13,954 bases of DNA from Chitinophagales bacterium (GTDB lineage: Bacteria; Bacteroidota; Bacteroidia; Chitinophagales; UBA2359): positions 1 to 13,954 of the forward strand of contig JAHDDN010000109.1 in assembly GCA_020629335.1 (NCBI GenBank), given 5' to 3'. The translations under genes were made by a program, and so were the position numbers. Positions 3,198 through 13,954 of this stretch are shown here, piece after piece. Each line of letters begins with the position of its first letter. Positions within the stretch are counted from its first letter, which is position 1. The notes beneath the pieces are model-generated. The model saw only the letters and a list, made by a program, of their open reading frames with translations, was not told the origin of the DNA and ran no database searches.

Positions 3198-5555
3198 ATG
3201 AGTATAAAAAATTTAATGATTGTGGAGTCGCCAGCTAAGGCCAAAACCATAGAAAAATATTTAGGAGACGGATTTACCGTAAAATCTTCTTATGGTCATA
3301 TAAGGGATTTACCCAGAGGTAGTATCGCTATTGATGTAGATAATAATTATACTCCAGAGTATGAAGTCCCAAAAGACAAAAAAGACTTAGTAAAAGAATT
3401 AAAAAAGCTAGCAAAAGAAGCAGAGGCTGTATGGCTAGCAACGGATGAGGATCGTGAAGGAGAAGCCATCTCTTGGCACCTTTGCGAAGAATTAGGACTC
3501 AATGTTGCCAATACTAAGCGTATCGTATTCCACGAGATTACCAAAAAAGCGATCCAAAGTGCGGTACAAAATCCACGCATCATTGATATGAATTTAGTCA
3601 ATGCTCAGCAAGCAAGAAGAGTATTAGACCGTTTAGTAGGATTCAAAATTTCCCCTATCTTATGGCGTAAAATTACCAGAAGTGGTTCTCTATCAGCCGG
3701 TAGAGTACAGTCTGTTGCCTTAAGATTAGTAGTGGAGAGAGAAAAGGCAATCAAGGACTTTGAGGTAAAATCATACTTCAAAATTTCAGCTATTTTCATT
3801 GTAGAAGATGCCAACGGACGAAAAGTAGAACTCAAAGCAGAACTACCTAAGAAGTTTGAATTGGAAGGAGATGCGAATGCCTTTTTGGAAAAATGCAATG
3901 GCGCTGATTTTACAATTGAAAAAATTGAAGTAAAGCCAGCCAAGAAACGTCCGCCAGCACCATTCACGACTTCTACCTTGCAACAAGATGCCAGCCGTAA
4001 ATTCGGCTTTTCAGTAGCTCGTACCATGAGTGTGGCACAAAGACTATATGAAGCAGGTTTGATTACCTATATGCGTACCGATTCTGTAAGCTTATCAGAT
4101 ACAGCTGTGCAAGCAGCAACGGAAGAGATTAATTCAAAGTATGGTGAATCATACGTACAAAATCGTCAGTATAAAAATAAATCTTCAAATGCTCAAGAAG
4201 CACACGAAGCTATTCGTCCTGCTTATATGGATAGAGAAACAGCAGGCGATACTCCAGAACAAGAAAAATTATATAAACTGATCCGTAAGCGTGCCTTAGC
4301 TTCGCAAATGAAAGATGCGGAGTTTGAACGCACAACAGCTACTATCGGTATTTCTACTACAGATGAAAAACTAGTTGCCAAAGGAGAAGTATTAACTTTT
4401 GATGGTTTCTTAAAAATCTACCGTGAATCATTCGATGATGAAGTAGAAGATGATTCAGGTATGTTACCACCTTTAAGTGTTGGGCAGTTACTAAACTTAA
4501 GAGAATTATTCGCTACTGAGCGTTTCAGTCGTCCACCAGCAAGATTCACAGAAGCGAGTTTAGTAAAGAAATTAGAAGAGTTAGCGATTGGTAGACCATC
4601 TACTTATGCTCCAACGATTAGTACTATTCAGAAGCGTAATTATGTCGTCAAGGAAAGCCGAGAAGGTAGCCCACGTAATTATACTGAATATACACTTTAC
4701 GGTCCAGCCAGCGATAAGTCAGGCACTTTAGACAAACTGCTTAAGCAAGAAAACCATGGTGTAGAAAAATCAAAGTTATTCCCAACAGATATGGGTAGGC
4801 TGGTTAGCCAGTTTTTGGTACAGCACTTTGAGAATATCATGGAATATAGCTTCACCGCGAATATTGAAAAAGAATTTGACGAAATTGCACAAGGCAAAAT
4901 GGTATGGAATAATATGATAGACGAGTTCTATAAACCATTCCATATAGTAGTCGAAGAAACAATGGAAACGGCTGAAAGAGTGACTGGACAAAGAGAATTA
5001 GGAGTTGATCCTAAGTCTGGAAAGAAAGTGTATGCTCGTTTAGGAAAGTTTGGTCCTATGGTCCAAATCGGAGAAGTAGAAGATGAAGAAAAGCCCAAGT
5101 TTGCCTCTATTCGTCCGCCACACACTTTAGATAGTGTCACCTTTGAACAAGCCATGGAGCTATTCAAATTGCCAAGAGAAGTAGGAGAATTTGAAGATCA
5201 AAAGGTGATTGCCAGCCAAGGAAGATTTGGCCCTTACTTAAAGCTAGGAACAGGCAGTAACTTCTTTTCTATCAAAGAAGATGATCCCTATACAATCGGT
5301 ATAGAAAGAGCTATTGAAGTGATCAAGGAGAAAAGAGAAGCAGATGCTAAGAAAATCATCAAGCTTTTTGATGAAGATCCAGAAATTCAAATTCTAAATG
5401 GTCGATGGGGGCCATACATCAAAGCAGGCAAAAAGAATGTGAAGATTCCAAAGGAGCAAAAAGAAACGCCAGAAGCCTTAACATTTGAAGAAGTGTCTGA
5501 GTTAATTAAAAATGCACCAGAAAAGAAGTCGAGAGCGAGGAAAAAGAAATCTTAA
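3198..5555 (+). CDS. topA: DNA topoisomerase I (type IA)
   Basis: Relaxes negative supercoils by cutting and rejoining one DNA strand through a 5'-phosphotyrosine link. The 785 residues begin with a Toprim domain: VESPAKAKT with E10, and ATDEDREGE with acidic D83 and D85. The core includes SAGRVQSVALRLVVERE (166-182) and GLITYMRTDS (287-296), whose Y291 corresponds to the catalytic tyrosine (E. coli Y319). The C-terminus has no C4 zinc fingers; it carries three short repeats of the R-x-GxFGP type near residues 613-625, 676-684 and 735-744, followed by a basic tail ending RARKKKS. This matches the form usual in Bacteroidota. The ATG at 3198 places the Toprim strand directly at the N-terminus. 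It converges on the retron RT gene, with 9 bp between stop codons. Confidence 0.97.
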   Translation: MSIKNLMIVESPAKAKTIEKYLGDGFTVKSSYGHIRDLPRGSIAIDVDNNYTPEYEVPKDKKDLVKELKKLAKEAEAVWLATDEDREGEAISWHLCEELGLNVANTKRIVFHEITKKAIQSAVQNPRIIDMNLVNAQQARRVLDRLVGFKISPILWRKITRSGSLSAGRVQSVALRLVVEREKAIKDFEVKSYFKISAIFIVEDANGRKVELKAELPKKFELEGDANAFLEKCNGADFTIEKIEVKPAKKRPPAPFTTSTLQQDASRKFGFSVARTMSVAQRLYEAGLITYMRTDSVSLSDTAVQAATEEINSKYGESYVQNRQYKNKSSNAQEAHEAIRPAYMDRETAGDTPEQEKLYKLIRKRALASQMKDAEFERTTATIGISTTDEKLVAKGEVLTFDGFLKIYRESFDDEVEDDSGMLPPLSVGQLLNLRELFATERFSRPPARFTEASLVKKLEELAIGRPSTYAPTISTIQKRNYVVKESREGSPRNYTEYTLYGPASDKSGTLDKLLKQENHGVEKSKLFPTDMGRLVSQFLVQHFENIMEYSFTANIEKEFDEIAQGKMVWNNMIDEFYKPFHIVVEETMETAERVTGQRELGVDPKSGKKVYARLGKFGPMVQIGEVEDEEKPKFASIRPPHTLDSVTFEQAMELFKLPREVGEFEDQKVIASQGRFGPYLKLGTGSNFFSIKEDDPYTIGIERAIEVIKEKREADAKKIIKLFDEDPEIQILNGRWGPYIKAGKKNVKIPKEQKETPEALTFEEVSELIKNAPEKKSRARKKKS

Positions 5556-5572
5556 GCTTATTCCTTAAGATT
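5548..5572. other. Inverted repeat spanning the topA and RT stop codons
   Basis: A perfect 9-bp inverted repeat (AATCTTAAG, 5548-5556, and CTTAAGATT, 5564-5572) with a 7-nt loop sits exactly on the convergent junction and contains both stop codons. It could stabilise both mRNA 3' ends or slow polymerase in both directions, but neither side has a T-run, so it is not a classical terminator. Confidence 0.5.
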
Positions 5573-7037
5573 CCCACATATTCCACCATTCGTCATCTTT
5601 CTCATCATTAGAAGATGACTGGTCTTTAGGGGGCGTATTAAGTCTATTACTATATGGGCTTAATATATCCCTTACTTTTTTTAATAAGGCTTCCCCTTTT
5701 CTTGGATTCACCATATTAACAAATTGGGCAAAACCATAAATTGAGGGGATTAATCGCGGCCCTTTTTTTCCATTCCAATGTTTGCCCTCCAGGCCATCTT
5801 TCCCAATTTGAAAAAGCAAAGCTCGAAATTTTTTCAGTGTTTTATTATCAACAGATAAATGTTGATTGACAATAATACCTGTTACCTCTTGTTTTTGATG
5901 CTTTCGCATGATCCGTAACTTATCAGGATGCAGGGTGAATCCTTCCTCTTTTAAAATCATATTCACTGTCCAAAGTATATTTTGGACATTATTTTGAGCC
6001 GCTTCCCCTGAAGCAGAAAAGCTTAAATCGTCTGCATATCGAGTATAGGTAAATGATAAAGCTTCCGCTAAACCTTGTAAGCGCTTGTCGAGTTTATAGC
6101 ACAGTATATTGGTTAATGCTGGGCTAGAAGGAGCACCTTGAGGCAATACTCTTTCCCCTGTGGCTAAGTAGAATATTTCTCCATCGATTTTGATTCTCTC
6201 CATTGGAGATTCTGTGCAAATTAGGCTAAGTATAGTCGCTAACTGTTCAGAATATCCTAAGTTTTTGAATAAGCCTTTGATTCTGTTATAGCTAATTGTT
6301 GGGAAGAAATCTTGTATGTCAAAGTTAATCACAATATCCTTTTGAATATGTGGATAAGCATTATTGATAATAGATTTTTGTTTGACGAATCCCTTAGCTG
6401 CTTGATGTATAGGCACCTTCTCTAAAATATGATTGAGTATCCAATATTGAGCTTGTTTGAGGCGAGGCATTGGGGCAGAAATAAGTCGATGTCCGCCATT
6501 CTTTTTAGGGGTATAAAAACGCTGGTAATGATTAATTTTAGATCGCTTTTTTTGATAACTCAAAAATCTCAATTCACTAATACTGATGTTCATAGCCGAA
6601 GCGAGCATAGAAGCATTATTAATAAGTGGCAATCCAAATTGAGTGAGTTTTTGAATATTAGAATTTTGATCTTCTAATCCTTTAGACAGTCCTTCGCCTA
6701 AGTAAACGATATTGTTACTGGCTCTTTCTCTCCAATCATTATCTTTGAGTTGCGCTTCTAATTTTAGTTGCTTTAATTCTCTATTTTGAGTGGCGCTTGA
6801 TTGTTGTATTAATCGGATTTGTTTAAGCTTTTCTTCCCAATTAGGTATACTTTCCAATGCTGCTTTGATCGCTTGCCATTGCGCTTGTTCTTCAATATTT
6901 GATAGCTCATTTTCAGGCACAATTTTCCCCTCTTGCCAAAAACCCAATTGGATTAATTTAGCCAATAATTGATCAGGCTTTAGGAGTTTTAATGGCTGAT
7001 CAAATAATTCTTGATTGTTCCCTGTTTTTTGGGGCAT
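5565..7037 (-). CDS. Retron reverse transcriptase
   Basis: RNA-directed DNA polymerase expected to prime from the 2'-OH of a guanosine in its cognate RNA and make msDNA. Within 490 residues the RT core shows FDIQDFFP (239-246, catalytic D240), LPQGAPSSP (298-306) and YADD (334-337, catalytic D336/D337). Two retron hallmarks are present: NAYPH (226-230, the NAxxH motif) and VTG (385-387). Residues 1-160 form an unusually long N-terminal extension, helical and charged, with a possible coiled coil near 65-105; many retron RTs are only about 300-350 residues. The C-terminus is acidic and tryptophan-rich (DDEWWNMWES). The frame stays open to 7172, but that part overlaps the candidate msr-msd RNA, and residues before MPQKTGN look like translated RNA structure, so the ATG at 7037 is preferred. 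It is last in a minus-strand operon. Confidence 0.93.
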   Translation of the reverse strand: MPQKTGNNQELFDQPLKLLKPDQLLAKLIQLGFWQEGKIVPENELSNIEEQAQWQAIKAALESIPNWEEKLKQIRLIQQSSATQNRELKQLKLEAQLKDNDWRERASNNIVYLGEGLSKGLEDQNSNIQKLTQFGLPLINNASMLASAMNISISELRFLSYQKKRSKINHYQRFYTPKKNGGHRLISAPMPRLKQAQYWILNHILEKVPIHQAAKGFVKQKSIINNAYPHIQKDIVINFDIQDFFPTISYNRIKGLFKNLGYSEQLATILSLICTESPMERIKIDGEIFYLATGERVLPQGAPSSPALTNILCYKLDKRLQGLAEALSFTYTRYADDLSFSASGEAAQNNVQNILWTVNMILKEEGFTLHPDKLRIMRKHQKQEVTGIIVNQHLSVDNKTLKKFRALLFQIGKDGLEGKHWNGKKGPRLIPSIYGFAQFVNMVNPRKGEALLKKVRDILSPYSNRLNTPPKDQSSSNDEKDDEWWNMWES

Positions 7038-7071
7038 GATAAATTTTGAAAATTGGGAGCGTAGCAACAGG

Positions 7072-7272
7072 AAAGAGATACCTTCGTACATGCACAGGAC
7101 CGGAATCCTCAATTCATGCGACCCGGTACTATATATGCTCATTGACTTTTCAAAGTCGAACCGCAATAGCATATATAGTGATAGGGGCGATTTGTAATGA
7201 GTTTTCCGGTGAAGCTTGCTAATGTCATACTACACGGACAACGATCCATTGCCCTAATTGCAAGGTCTCTTT
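7072..7272 (-). ncRNA. Candidate retron msr-msd RNA
   Basis: This 201-nt minus-strand segment lies between the winged-helix gene and the RT gene, the usual place for retron RNA. The ends are complementary: a1 reads AAAGAGACCTT (7272-7262) and a2 reads AAGGTATCTCTTT (7084-7072), pairing as 7+4 bp with a 2-nt bulge. Just inside a1 is AATTAGGG; the UUAG context resembles the branch site of known retrons, making G7254 (or 7253/7252) the candidate priming guanosine. A hairpin follows (GGGCAAT and GTTGTCC, 5-nt loop, 7254-7236, two G-U pairs), as expected of an msr stem-loop. The msd part would contain the long hairpin at 7128-7179 and a second one closed by ACCGG/CCGGT (7127-7123 and 7103-7099). 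The msr/msd boundary and exact ends are inferred. Confidence 0.72.
7128..7179 (-). other. Long msd-type hairpin inside the retron RNA
   Basis: ACTATATATGCT (7179-7168) and AGCATATATAGT (7139-7128) pair perfectly over 12 bp. After one bulged base (7140) the stem continues with ATTG/CAAT (7167-7164 and 7144-7141). The apical region contains GACTT/AAGTC around a 4-nt loop, which competes with the last pair of the lower stem. Long, nearly unbroken stems of this kind are typical of msd regions that become the single-stranded DNA hairpin. The stem is strikingly A/T-only in its lower half. Confidence 0.7.
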
Positions 7273-7327
7273 ACCCATCACTACGGACAGAATGTCTTTC
7301 TCCCAAAGGATTTTTATTATTTGATTA

Positions 7328-8626
7328 TCAAGTTAATTGATATTTTTGATTACTTAAGTTACATTTGATTTTTCTCTTCATAATTAGATTGATAATTAGT
7401 TTGTATTTATCTTGTTTAGTTAGTCCAAAATGAGCACCTATTTCTTTCTCACTCATCTGAGTTTTACTCGCTAAAACACCCAAGAATTCTTCTTGTAGTG
7501 CAATATCTTCCTGAGTCTCTCTATTATTCATTTCAAATGAATGATGCAGTTGTTCTATATGCTGTGGATTGCCACAAAGTCCCAAGCAAAAGTGCAAATC
7601 ATTCATAGGGGCCGAAAAGAAAACAGGCAAATCATTATTAAGCAAATGAACATTAACTTTTGGAACCCAAGGAAGTATAGGCCTTAATAAAGTAATCGGG
7701 CGTATATCATAAATTGAAATAAAGCCTTTTTGACTACCTATATAATTTGTTCGTACACATTTATAAGTGTAGGGCCACTCAGGAAAATGTAGTTGAACGG
7801 GCTGATTTTTATTCAGTTGAACTTGACAATTAATCCTTTTTGCACCTTTTGATTTTTGTTGGATCAATGTGCATATATTATGTATATCAATCGGCTGAAG
7901 TTGGAATCTACAATTATGAGAAGCCATAGCCCAATACATTAAGGTTTTAACTTGATCCCATTTAGGATCATGTGCTACTTTTATGATGGAATCTTCTTTA
8001 GCCTCAATATTTATTTGAGTCGTTTGATAATTTCTTATTTGGTTAAGCTGCTCAAAATATCGCTTCTCGAAAGGCAATTGTATACTGAATGAGCGATTAT
8101 TTTCAATATCTCTCAACGTATCCGATTTTGTTGAGAAAGTAGTTAAGCAACAAGCATTAGTACTAAAAGCTTCCATACTTAATTGAGTATTATTAACACT
8201 TAGCTCATAAGGAGGAATAAGTGAATACCCCATATTTTGCTCATAATGATATTGCTGATATTTGGAGATAGCTCTTTGGTAGTCCGTTTTTTGTTGATGG
8301 AGTTGAGACTTTATTTGATCAATATCTTCGCTAATTTTAGATAATTGATCACCCCCATTGACTTCTTGTTTAATCAATTCTTCAATGAGCTCCAATTTTT
8401 TTAGCTGATTGAATTTTTGATAAGATATTTTACTTTTAGGCCGAGCAGTACAATACAAAAGAGTTTGCTCTAATATGCGCACAGCTTCTCTGAAACTAAG
8501 TCCTTTTTTTAGACTTGCTCTAAAGTAATCACCTGCGTTTAATTGATTAGAGGAAATATTGATTCCTAATCTTTGGCGATTAAAATTGACGGCATATGTT
8601 TCTTTATAGCTATTAGGGCGATGCAT
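7328..8626 (-). CDS. Retron accessory protein with C-terminal winged helix
   Basis: A 432-residue protein not recognised over most of its length. Residues 35-60 look helical, 70-125 form a probable coiled coil (LKKLELIEELI, then IDQIKSQLHQQKTDYQRAI), the middle is mixed and rich in aromatic and cysteine residues, and 375-430 look like a winged helix: MSEKEIGAHFGLTKQDKYKL followed by a recognition-helix-like stretch and an NQKYQL wing. C347-x3-C351-x4-H356 could bind metal, but a full SWIM motif (CxC...CxH) is not present. No signal peptide or membrane segment is seen. The ATG at 8626 follows the 1079-residue gene by 7 nt after an A-rich leader, indicating one transcript, and the retron RNA follows its stop by about 55 nt. 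From memory, type XIII retrons encode a winged-helix/SWIM partner; this fits in position. Effector or DNA-binding roles are inference. Confidence 0.8.
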   Translation of the reverse strand: MHRPNSYKETYAVNFNRQRLGINISSNQLNAGDYFRASLKKGLSFREAVRILEQTLLYCTARPKSKISYQKFNQLKKLELIEELIKQEVNGGDQLSKISEDIDQIKSQLHQQKTDYQRAISKYQQYHYEQNMGYSLIPPYELSVNNTQLSMEAFSTNACCLTTFSTKSDTLRDIENNRSFSIQLPFEKRYFEQLNQIRNYQTTQINIEAKEDSIIKVAHDPKWDQVKTLMYWAMASHNCRFQLQPIDIHNICTLIQQKSKGAKRINCQVQLNKNQPVQLHFPEWPYTYKCVRTNYIGSQKGFISIYDIRPITLLRPILPWVPKVNVHLLNNDLPVFFSAPMNDLHFCLGLCGNPQHIEQLHHSFEMNNRETQEDIALQEEFLGVLASKTQMSEKEIGAHFGLTKQDKYKLIINLIMKRKIKCNLSNQKYQLT

Positions 8627-8633
8627 TTTTATT

Positions 8634-11600
8634 TTATTTTTTATCTCTTACCTCATAAGGAACTAGTTCCAAAGGCATCTTAGTTTTGGGGAATTGTTGT
8701 GCAATTTTCTGCATAATAGCAATACTTGCAGTTTTGTCTTTTTCGATTACACTCAAAGAAATTTCTTGTAGAAATTCCGAAATGATATTTGCCGCAGAAG
8801 GCGTTTTGACAGCCTCTGCACTTAGGTAATTGAAAATGCTATTTTTGGTACTTCTATTCGCTTCTCCGCCATAAAATATGCTCTTGAAATAAGGCATCAA
8901 AGCTAAGAGTTTTTTTGGTTCTCCACTGGCGTATTTTTCCAAATAATTGGTTAAATATGCTTGGATGTTGGGAGAAGGGTGCTCGTGGAGTTTCTCCAGA
9001 TAAATACTTCCAAATTCATCATCGAAAAATTGTCCTAATAAATCTTTGCCAAATTGTTGTACATCTTCTGTACTATGATCACAGATAAAGATTAGCTGCT
9101 CCGCTTCCCAATCTTGAATATTGAACTGTAGGAAAAAATTAATAGCGAAAAAGCGCATATCCTCCCATTCCGAAGAGAATAATCCAAGTGCATCATTGAT
9201 AGACTCCTTCACTCTTGGAATATCTGATTCAAACACTTCCCCAACCACATTCCTAACCGCTTGATAAGGATGATTTCCTAATTGAGCTAACTGTCGGATT
9301 GACAGATCATGTGCTAATTGAGAATTTCTCATTAGATAACTCGCAAATTCCTGAGCGGAAGGGGAAGATGTTTGAAAAAGCTGCCATAACAATTGACTGT
9401 CAATAACTGATAATACTTGCTTTGGAAAATTAGTTAATTGGTTAATAATAAAAGCATGTTGAGCATGATCAGCCTTAGTATCCAGCAGTTTTTGTACTAA
9501 AGTATTTAATAAGGAATGGAGTAAGGCTTCATCATCTTCTGCCACCCGATTAATTAAGTCCTTTGCAAAGGCTTGAACATTATCAAAGGCGGAAACAAAT
9601 ATTTCATAAATAAGTGTTTTATTCTTGAAGATATCATTTGTCTCTTGCTCATTGATCGCCTTAATAGCAAAATTCCTATTCGTCTCAATTGGACTATTCA
9701 ATAAGCTGATCAGTATTTCATCATTTACATCCCTAAGATTTATCTTGCTTAAGTTTAATAGATTAGCACCAATTTGTTGAATTGGAAGGGCAGGATGTTG
9801 AAAAAGTGCTTGAATGCTAGATAAGTCTAAATTCGAAAGTATTTTAGGATAGACTTGAACAAGACTTTTATAACTTCTATTAAGTTGTATTTGCTGAATA
9901 TCATCTATTTCAGTCGGATAAGCAGCCATTTGTCCTAAGCTATGTTGAACTACCTCTTTTTGAAGTTGATTAGCAAGTGTTGGTAAAATGGCCTGAGCAT
10001 ATTGACTGACGTCTTCCTCCATCGCTAATAGTTGTGCAATGAAGTCAGTCGCTTTGAGCCACCAGTCCTTATTCTCTTTTATATCCAACCAATCTAATCC
10101 TATTTTTCTAATAGCAGCTTTAGGATGCTTTAATAAACTCAAAATCAATGTTCGGTTGACAGCATCACGCTGAATTCTTCCTTCAACTAAGTGAAGTCCA
10201 AATGATTGATTAGCCTCATAAGGAGATTGAAGCAAAAGCTGTATAAACCCAATACTAATTCTATGATGAATTCCGCTATTAGCCATTAATGCCTTCACGG
10301 CAAATTCTTGCACAATTTCGCACTTGCTCTCCGCCAATAAATGCAGCAAACCTTCTGGAGCAGCATCCCATAAATGTGGAAATGCTTCTTCTCTTTCCTG
10401 AGGTGTCTTAGCATTAATAGGCTGGCCTATTTTATAAGTCCAAGCCCTTCGGCTTTTAACTAATTCATAGCGAGGGCTATTACTATACAAGATATGATTG
10501 AGCACCCAATAAGGAGCATAAGGCCCATAAATCGCCTCTTTCCCTTTTTTCCCTTTTTTAATATTTTGAGCGTCTGCATCCACATAAGGCAGTAATATAC
10601 CCACCGCCATTTGAACATAAGTTCGACTGTTTTGCTGTGCTAATTTTCTAAGATAACGCCATATGCGTTTTTGTATATATCGTCTTGTCCAAAAAGAATA
10701 GGTCAACTTAGTATAAGGGCTTTTTAATTCCTCTCGAATATTCACCCATCTTCCTTTGATAAAGACGCCTCGATGCGCTCGATTATAATAGAAATTATGT
10801 GGTGACTTCGCAATACGATAAGCAATCCAACCTAAAGTTTCTGAATCATCCCTAAACTCAGCGGCCTTAAATAATCGCCTGAAATTTTTAAAAAAACCAA
10901 GCTCTAATGGATGATCTTGAATGATACTAATCAAAACCTGCTTTACGGCAGTATACTCATCCGTTAGTAAATATAGCGTATTTAAAACATCATAAGTAGC
11001 ATGGGATTTTTGGAAATAATTAAAAATCGCTTCAGCTAGCAAATCAGTATTATTGGTCTGTAGAGATTCTTTTATTTCAAAAGGTAATTGCTCTAAAGTC
11101 TCCTTAATAAACTGTTTTCTTTGTGCTCCAGTGGAAAGCTGACGAATACCCTCTGAAGCAATTTGACGAATCGAGGCATTATAATTTTTATGTTGATACC
11201 GACGCAAAATGCTTAAAGCTTCCGTTTCCTTAGAACGTCCTAATGACCAGACTAATGAATAATCTAAAATATTGGGATTGATCACTTTGTTATCACTAAG
11301 TTGAGTCGAGCTTGAAAAGCTATTTTGAGCAATAGCAATCAAATAAGGAGTCAACTTTTTTAAGCGCAATTCTCCTGCTCGCCACACTAACCTCTCTAAC
11401 GAAATTGTGGCCTCATAAGGATTGATCGCATTCTCAGAAATGGCCTTCAAATGCTGAACTAAATAATCATCATCTTCCTGTGAGAATTCCTGATCAATCG
11501 CCATTAGCTCTAATGGATCTTCTTCAACAGCAATTGGCTCAGCTATTTCTTCCGTTCCAATAAGATCATTCGACTCATCAGGAGAAGCAACTACTTCATC

Positions 11601-11873
11601 CTCATGACCCAAATCTCTGGAATTTTCCGCTAAGTCAACTAATTGATAAGCCTTGGCGAGTCTATAATTGATGCAATTTTCAAAAACCTTAACAGCAGAT
11701 TCATAAGAAACAGCTAATATGGTTTCTTGCCCCTCTTTAACCAACTGATTATTTAAAAGCTGTCTGAAATTGACGACATAGCGATCTCGTCCGACCTCAC
11801 ATAGGTCAATCTCATAAAGGTGATGATAGTCGTCGCCCTTAAGAACTAGGGATTGCTGATGAATCAATTTCAT
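8634..11873 (-). CDS. WGR-like and HEAT/ARM-repeat retron accessory protein
   Basis: A 1079-residue soluble protein. Residues 1-80 match a WGR domain (YEIDLCEVGRDRYVVNFR at 20-37, then a VSYESAVKVFENCINYRLAKAY-like helix), but the WGR signature itself is replaced by QLLNNQ. In PARP proteins WGR domains bind DNA ends. An acidic linker (86-136) follows. A basic, aromatic middle section (about 355-480, including KGRWVN, FWTRRYIQKRIWRYLRK and GKKGKEA) may be a separate domain. Helical repeats of HEAT/ARM type fill much of the rest, clearest at LKHPKAAIRKIG (581-592), FQHPALPIQQIG (691-702), LGNHPYQAVRNVVG (865-878) and HEHPSPNIQAYL (963-974). It is first in the operon, 7 nt ahead of the winged-helix gene. 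No catalytic motif is visible, so scaffold or sensor is as likely as toxin. The start at 11873 is the only ATG fitting the WGR N-terminus. Confidence 0.85.
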   Translation of the reverse strand: MKLIHQQSLVLKGDDYHHLYEIDLCEVGRDRYVVNFRQLLNNQLVKEGQETILAVSYESAVKVFENCINYRLAKAYQLVDLAENSRDLGHEDEVVASPDESNDLIGTEEIAEPIAVEEDPLELMAIDQEFSQEDDDYLVQHLKAISENAINPYEATISLERLVWRAGELRLKKLTPYLIAIAQNSFSSSTQLSDNKVINPNILDYSLVWSLGRSKETEALSILRRYQHKNYNASIRQIASEGIRQLSTGAQRKQFIKETLEQLPFEIKESLQTNNTDLLAEAIFNYFQKSHATYDVLNTLYLLTDEYTAVKQVLISIIQDHPLELGFFKNFRRLFKAAEFRDDSETLGWIAYRIAKSPHNFYYNRAHRGVFIKGRWVNIREELKSPYTKLTYSFWTRRYIQKRIWRYLRKLAQQNSRTYVQMAVGILLPYVDADAQNIKKGKKGKEAIYGPYAPYWVLNHILYSNSPRYELVKSRRAWTYKIGQPINAKTPQEREEAFPHLWDAAPEGLLHLLAESKCEIVQEFAVKALMANSGIHHRISIGFIQLLLQSPYEANQSFGLHLVEGRIQRDAVNRTLILSLLKHPKAAIRKIGLDWLDIKENKDWWLKATDFIAQLLAMEEDVSQYAQAILPTLANQLQKEVVQHSLGQMAAYPTEIDDIQQIQLNRSYKSLVQVYPKILSNLDLSSIQALFQHPALPIQQIGANLLNLSKINLRDVNDEILISLLNSPIETNRNFAIKAINEQETNDIFKNKTLIYEIFVSAFDNVQAFAKDLINRVAEDDEALLHSLLNTLVQKLLDTKADHAQHAFIINQLTNFPKQVLSVIDSQLLWQLFQTSSPSAQEFASYLMRNSQLAHDLSIRQLAQLGNHPYQAVRNVVGEVFESDIPRVKESINDALGLFSSEWEDMRFFAINFFLQFNIQDWEAEQLIFICDHSTEDVQQFGKDLLGQFFDDEFGSIYLEKLHEHPSPNIQAYLTNYLEKYASGEPKKLLALMPYFKSIFYGGEANRSTKNSIFNYLSAEAVKTPSAANIISEFLQEISLSVIEKDKTASIAIMQKIAQQFPKTKMPLELVPYEVRDKK

Positions 11874-12058: not shown

Positions 12059-12094
12059 AAAGCCCCCACTCTTCGTTCGAAAAGTGGGGGCTTT
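12059..12094 (-). terminator. Intrinsic terminator of the head-GIN lipoprotein gene
   Basis: A perfect 12-bp stem (aaagcccccact, 12059-12070, and agtgggggcttt, 12083-12094) continues past one mismatch with ttc/gaa. On the minus strand it ends in a run of six T, so it terminates transcription from the gene that stops at 12143. It also insulates the retron operon from read-through. The plus strand has only TTT after the stem, so action there would be weaker. Confidence 0.92.
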
Positions 12095-13130: not shown

Positions 13131-13354
13131 TGGGGCTTCCCTGCGTTCACAAAAATCAAGTGTACAGCACAGTCCCATTAATCATCATGCATTCATCATT
13201 AATCATTCGCCGAAGGCGCAGGTCGGGCTGTCCGTTCTTATGTGGCTATGCTGCTCCTACTCTGCTAAGTGCTGCTTGTCTCTAAGGAGCCTGCGCATCA
13301 CTAAGCGCCGTAAGTCACATCATAAACGCCACATACCACTTCCATCCCTAAGCC
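13131..13354 (+). repeat. Structured intergenic repeat, copy B
   Basis: Same orientation and plan as copy A: ttggggcttccc opens it, ggctt (13134-13138) pairs with aagcc (13350-13354), a hairpin-1 arm pair cctgcg (13140-13145) and cgcagg (13217-13222) is followed by gtcgggctgtccg, and hairpin-2 arms tatgtggc (13239-13246) and gccacata (13328-13335) enclose the shared core. The loop of hairpin 1 is unrelated to copy A and carries attaatcat duplicated. No coding frame. The plan is conserved while arm sequence drifts in step. Confidence 0.75.
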
Positions 13355-13821: not shown

Positions 13822-13842
13822 ACTCATCGCTAGTTTCCGCAA

Positions 13843-13954
13843 GGGATGGCAGCGGTATGTGGCGTACATGATGCGACTTACGGCGCTTAGTGATGCGACG
13901 GCTGGCCCGCAGGGCAGACAAGCAACACTTAGCAGAGTAGGAGCAGCATAGCCA
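13843..13954 (-). repeat. Structured intergenic repeat, copy C, inverted, cut by window end
   Basis: Read on the minus strand this matches hairpin 2 of copy B: ggctatgctgctcctactctg near the window edge, then gctaagtgttgcttgtct, gcatcactaagcgccgtaagt and gccacata (13863-13856), then ccatccc. The apex differs (tgccctgcgggcca in place of tctaaggagcct) but is again self-complementary. The window ends inside the outer arm, so the rest of the element lies beyond it. It faces copy B about 490 bp away. Confidence 0.7.

Follow-up and report, generated by a model that had tools for sequence, protein, structure and literature searches.

A minus-strand operon in the stretch of Chitinophagales DNA analysed here (13,954 nt at its full length; hereafter, the window) is almost certainly a retron of type XIII descent, a type that is already described and was reportedly defined by Mestre and colleagues in 2020. 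With type XIII retrons it shares the RT family, the ncRNA family, both partner genes and their order (WGR/HEAT gene, middle gene, ncRNA and RT, as in L001, L002 and other loci), whereas it differs from them in lacking the SWIM zinc finger, in having lost the WGR signature and in the divergence of its middle protein. Because the SWIM zinc finger is absent, we class the locus as a variant descended from type XIII and not as a canonical member.

Operon layout, reverse transcriptase and retron RNA

The initial annotation had described one minus-strand operon with a WGR/HEAT protein, a winged-helix protein and an RT, and all three ORFs were confirmed on that strand (Table 1), with a gap of 7 nt between the WGR/HEAT gene and the middle gene. 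The operon does lie amid housekeeping genes, as had also been proposed, its neighbours encoding an S49 peptidase, HPPK, topoisomerase I and a DUF2807 protein, and the codon usage of the retron genes resembles that of the window's housekeeping genes. The strong upstream terminator is likewise present, and among terminator-like sites whose count in the region is not above chance (4 observed vs 4.8 expected from shuffles) its stem is the only unusually strong one; it is most simply read as terminating the DUF2807 gene. A promoter scan of the window gave 23 sites against 25.2 expected, and a tRNA scan of the window gave none. Direct copies of a 134-nt non-coding repeat, 87% identical to each other, occupy positions 2817–2950 and 13221–13354, and a third, partial copy lies inverted at 13842–13954; the copies flank the stretch that runs from topA through the retron to the DUF2807 gene.

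Table 1. Features of the retron operon and its flanks, in window coordinates
Feature	Position	Strand	Basis
WGR/HEAT-repeat gene, 1079 aa, first of operon	8634..11873	-	ORF; PADLOC WGR_XIII
WGR region, residues 1-80, predicted fold, signature residues lost	11634..11873	-
HEAT/ARM-like repeat body, residues 132-1060	8694..11480	-	AF2 helices
Middle gene, 432 aa: PCNA-like body (predicted) and winged helix, without SWIM zinc finger	7328..8626	-	PADLOC SWIM_XIII; own HMM
PCNA-like (sliding-clamp) region, residues 34-356, helical insertion at ~66-130	7559..8527	-	predicted model
Winged-helix-like C-terminal end, residues 375-431	7334..7504	-	AF2 H-H-H-E-E, pLDDT ~67-81
Retron ncRNA (msr-msd) with long a1/a2 stem	7055..7304 (a1 side from 7304, a2 side to 7055)	-	covariance model R1; fold
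Long msd-tip hairpin of the ncRNA	7129..7178	-	fold; counterpart helices covary in the family
Retron RT, 490 aa from ATG 7037 (535-aa ORF opens at 7172)	5565..7037	-	PADLOC RT_XIII; NAYPH/YADD/VTG
Intrinsic terminator between DUF2807 gene and operon	12059..12094	-	16-pair stem and T tract
Topoisomerase I (topA) gene, facing the RT gene end at 5565	3198..5555	+

Retron RTs carry the hallmark motifs NAxxH and VTG, and both of those claimed for this RT were located, NAYPH at 6348–6362 and VTG at 5877–5885, together with YADD at 6027–6038. In a PADLOC profile search of the three proteins the RT scored 574.6 bits against RT_XIII (vs 307 bits for the next model), the first partner 813.5 bits against WGR_XIII and the middle protein 140.9 bits against SWIM_XIII, so that the proposed type XIII gene set stands, with RT_XIII the best model by far and both partners matching models of the type. 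Retron RTs head the PDB sequence matches of the window RT, Ec86 first (E = 1.4e-45), and 66 of the 69 residues invariant among 23 relatives are kept. Placement of the RT outside the retron clades, which the initial annotation had named as counting against its reading, was not what we found: in a tree of 102 RTs, all RT_XIII-like, such that it is the PADLOC scores that separate the RT from other retron types, the window RT groups with type XIII RTs inside an 89-row group containing the RNA-bearing loci. It sits on the longest of the tree's long end branches (1.23), which makes its exact position unsure. The RT ORF is as annotated, but its start had been placed too far upstream; the start is most likely the ATG at 7037 and not 7172, because the longer ORF passes through the ncRNA (placed at 7062–7288 by the covariance model), an overlap for which we rejected the start at 7172, and the ATG at 7037 gives an N-terminus resembling those of the relatives. 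Two stretches were returned when viral contigs were scanned with the RT, neither of them a relative, and a plasmid search returned one record, from Methylobacterium, at 43% identity.

The msr-msd RNA, until then a candidate, is confirmed by a covariance model (R1) derived from the aligned RNAs of 11 relatives with the window excluded: its single match in the window scores 107.7 bits (E = 2.6e-26), and the ncRNA has a folding z-score of −4.81, with 0 of 100 shuffles folding as well. No Rfam family reaches its gathering score within the window. On the unfitted alignment of the 11 RNAs (A1), RNAalifold gives 57 pairs, in 40 of which one or more sequences carry a compensatory change. After fitting to R1, variation on both sides is seen in 45 of the 57 pairs, and the share of cells that pair is 89.9%, vs 67.2% in shuffled and 33–45% in slid controls; all of these figures, controls included, come from the model-fitted alignment. 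Across 39 sources R1 matched 25 (11 of these inside the model), with 32 matches in total, and gave no match in 14 (L036, L037, L050 and L060–L070). The last of these, L060–L070, belong with L098 to a deeper group of RT_XIII-like RTs, some with a SWIM partner adjoining the RT and, in two loci inspected, with a HEAT partner that lacks a WGR start. Some loci of the order RNA, RT, WGR/HEAT, SWIM carry tandem retron RNAs, with two or three copies before one RT (L045 3031–3750, L046 3069–3672, L051 8398–8939, L057 8218–8718, L058 8155–8666 and L059 8151–8676).

Partner proteins of the variant

The WGR_XIII match to the 1079-aa protein extends over residues 1–1075, the HEAT-ARM_XIII models of PADLOC match it less strongly, and its AF2 model (mean pLDDT 64) consists mostly of helical repeats, with HEAT proteins such as karyopherins as the top Foldseek rows. 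Its description as a WGR-like/HEAT protein agrees with the profile match and, for the HEAT part, with the model; the loss of the WGR signature had been missed. Residues 2–78 are modelled as strand-strand-strand-strand-helix-strand from an alignment of three sequences, and the protein has no Pfam WGR match at E ≤ 1; the relatives L001 and L002 score 19.9 and 18.9 bits against Pfam WGR, both below the cut-off of 22. Of 31 residues invariant in the 23 relatives the window protein keeps 22, and all nine losses fall at residues 16–75, with 9 of 17 invariant residues changed in residues 1–80 vs 0 of 14 after residue 80 (Fisher p = 0.0013, for a split picked after seeing the data). Some of the 14 invariant residues of the HEAT body are polar and, in the excerpt of PMC13158370, known retrons are described as mostly releasing enzymes, both of which would suit a working type XIII effector-release retron with a catalytic toxin hidden in the HEAT or middle protein and a clamp likeness that is that of a scaffold. 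We regard this as unlikely, given that neither partner scores above the curated cut-off for any Pfam or NCBIfam family, in keeping with the earlier remark that the partners have no evident nuclease, protease, NADase or membrane-pore motif, that no PDB sequence relative of either partner was found, and that the HEAT model matches scaffold proteins.

The middle protein corresponds to the winged-helix/SWIM partner of type XIII retrons, but the SWIM zinc finger after which that partner is named is absent, which the initial annotation had missed: the middle proteins of all 23 relatives (541–576 aa) carry a C-terminal CxC..CxH motif, and the window protein stops before that position. In alignment A3, 49 of 51 rows match Pfam SWIM at E ≤ 10, and the window is one of the two without a match. 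We rejected the possibility that the SWIM end was merely frame-shifted away, since the stop codon lies only 40 nt from the RNA match, too little for the 100-plus missing residues. At RT identities of 38.9–46.9%, middle proteins of the relatives are 47.6–63.8% identical to one another (101 of 253 pairs), whereas the window protein is 17.4–22.0% identical to those of the 23 relatives (23 pairs) and keeps 36 of the 133 residues invariant among them (97 lost). The HEAT protein is no such outlier (22.1–30.5% for the window vs 21.2–37.7% among relatives). This 23-relative comparison covers loci with all three genes whole in the fetched stretches, leaving out loci whose genes were broken, truncated or unlinked, as well as the 13 genomes that form a third group described below. 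Judged by sequence comparison, homology of the middle protein to the SWIM_XIII partners is still clear, the SWIM_XIII match spanning profile positions 6–404 of 509 and our own middle-protein HMM, built without the window, matching at E = 1.3e-47 over positions 5–418 of 548. The lone self-match of the protein in a large protein database was discarded as evidence, because that search needs shared 5-residue words and relatives exist at 22–24% identity.

Losses on this scale raise the question of decay, in which the middle gene and the WGR region would be under relaxed constraint after loss of use, the RT and RNA being not yet decayed. The missing SWIM end, the 97 lost residues of the middle protein and the long RT end branch all point in this direction, as does L054 (G194), a system of the same kind in which the RT is broken and the middle gene split, while the adjacent WGR/HEAT gene is intact. 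We nevertheless think decay improbable: the three frames are intact, the first two genes remain closely spaced, codon usage is like that of housekeeping genes, the RNA still matches its family model, and core residues of the RT and HEAT proteins are retained. Neither a 395-genome phylum set nor the relatives fetched yielded another instance of the variant.

The body of the middle protein probably has a PCNA-like fold, as judged from its predicted model (AF2), in which a duplicated clamp fold is present; that PCNA/clamp proteins rank among its best viral matches also favours this fold. The winged-helix partner of the initial annotation is consequently retained in part, in a C-terminal winged-helix-like end, but the predicted PCNA-like body had been overlooked. 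Mean pLDDT of the clamp model is 63.4, most of residues 34–230 lying at 38–73, and in the alignment behind it the window is ~20% identical to the other sequences. The lack of other folds among the structural matches carries no weight as evidence. Sequence searches with the middle protein recovered no PCNA, either in the PDB at E ≤ 10 or among the Pfam matches listed (25 of 28 families); hhalign gives a probability of 2–4% against PCNA and, for the profile without the window, which is the only one that the shuffles cover, a score of 25.05, barely above the best of 100 shuffles (24.43). The protein thus differs from PCNA and other sliding clamps in having no significant sequence match to them, in its helical insertion and winged-helix tail and in its bacterial host, the likeness being one of predicted fold. 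Fold likeness alone shows no function. A possible match of one kept arginine to a DNA-contact residue of human PCNA was dropped, as the aligned R210 is absent from the contacts reported in the excerpt of the PCNA paper, which lists human residues K20, K77, R149, H153, K217 and K80.

Among the best viral matches to the middle-protein model in BFVD are PCNA/clamp proteins, including phage clamps such as a Tenacibaculum phage protein and DnaN-like phage proteins. With the PCNA-like predicted fold, these would accommodate a phage-clamp decoy or sensor, that is, a partner that pairs with the phage sliding clamp or its loader and detects or poisons replication, the msDNA acting as a second gate. We consider this highly unlikely, in that fold likeness is common to all clamps and the interaction is purely putative; a tblastn search with human PCNA also found no match in phage records, which says little at such a distance.

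Co-occurrence of the partners with type XIII RTs

In 341 genomes of the order to which L001's genome belongs, RT_XIII was detected at E ≤ 1e-100 in 41 and SWIM_XIII at the same threshold in 39, all 39 falling within the 41, so that the co-occurrence expected of true partners is seen for SWIM_XIII and, at strong scores (E ≤ 1e-190), in 28 of the 41 RT genomes for WGR_XIII. Both RT genomes that lack SWIM_XIII, G112 and G172, have short RT matches. WGR_XIII is weak in 7 of the RT genomes and absent at 1e-10 in 6; these make up the third group, in which the HEAT partner is without a WGR start in the two cases examined and R1 did not find the retron RNA. In the phylum set, the window middle protein finds a partner in 6 of 6 RT_XIII genomes (best E = 1.9e-28; 22–24% identity to the six), with one additional weak match (E = 0.001).

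Weaker SWIM_XIII matches only (E of 1e-20 or better) occur in 21 further genomes, and seven weak or extra places, in seven genomes, were inspected, all of which encode SWIM proteins of 445–455 aa (L103–L109). This family is akin to the retron partner, and its genomes lack RT_XIII with the exception of G042. Among the closest known systems are WGR-HEAT proteins that occur without retrons and these ~450-aa SWIM proteins, also from L001's order, which score 82–94 bits against the middle-protein HMM; in contrast to the window protein the ~450-aa proteins carry the SWIM finger, and we rejected the idea that the window protein is a stray member of their family because the family has no significant match to it.

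Several relatives depart from the compact layout. The partner pair lies ~65 kb from the RT in G026 (contig C2) and G042 (contig C23), and in G083 the RT and the WGR/SWIM pair are on different contigs (C3/C14/C66), all present in the genome. In L001 (6499–7938), L048 (4959–6398) and L049 (5609–7051) the WGR/HEAT and SWIM genes are separated by an extra gene; the one in L001 codes for a beta-propeller together with a WGR domain that scores well (66 bits).

A possible mechanism and its implications

We found no mechanism for type XIII retrons in the open-access literature, and the excerpt of a 2020 conflict-systems paper (eLife 52696) contains no mention of SWIM or WGR that we could find. The partners' predicted folds are DNA-related (clamp, winged helix, WGR-type domain and HEAT scaffold, with a SWIM finger in relatives). 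In other retrons, according to the excerpt of PMC13158370, the effector stays held by msDNA until this is disturbed by phage SSB, methylation or degradation. The best explanation overall, to which we give somewhat less than an even chance, is a type XIII-derived retron in which a DNA-binding clamp/HEAT pair is held by msDNA and freed by phage.

The guarded-clamp mechanism that we tentatively propose would run as follows. The RT would make hairpin msDNA out of the ncRNA and would form a resting complex with it and the two partners, the first of which is modelled as a HEAT superhelix that begins with a WGR-type domain. At rest, the msDNA hairpin would fill the surfaces with which the clamp/winged-helix protein and the HEAT scaffold would bind DNA; phage proteins that bind, cut or modify the msDNA would then release the clamp/HEAT pair, which would grip DNA and block replication or transcription, such that the infected cell would halt before phage release and a catalytic toxin would be unnecessary. 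The msDNA latch proposed here would be shared with Retron-Eco8, Ec86 and Ec83, as described in the same excerpt, whereas no OLD nuclease, NADase or other enzyme is recognised in the window's partners. The zinc finger and WGR signature are candidate DNA-contact elements. Their joint loss from a locus that retains the RT, RNA and HEAT core would make them accessory, or replaced, in the window; it also suggests that the two act together. More generally, and more doubtfully, type XIII retrons may use a defence-dedicated bacterial partner of PCNA fold that is held by msDNA and the HEAT scaffold and grips DNA non-enzymatically, the window being a pared-down natural form; that it shed zinc finger and WGR signature together would mark these two as one functional unit, dispensable for the core or replaced.

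As far as our searches of the open-access literature reach, three things are new: the prediction of a clamp-like partner, the family model for the RNA, and a variant that has neither finger nor WGR signature. The PCNA-type fold is usual in archaea, eukaryotes and some viruses. If the clamp-like partner is true, this fold would enter bacterial anti-phage defence and the unknown effector of type XIII retrons would become a testable one. R1 can serve to search for type XIII msr-msd RNAs, and the window, as a natural deletion variant without two parts of its complete relatives, indicates which parts may be dispensable and gives a concrete handle on how type XIII retrons may work.
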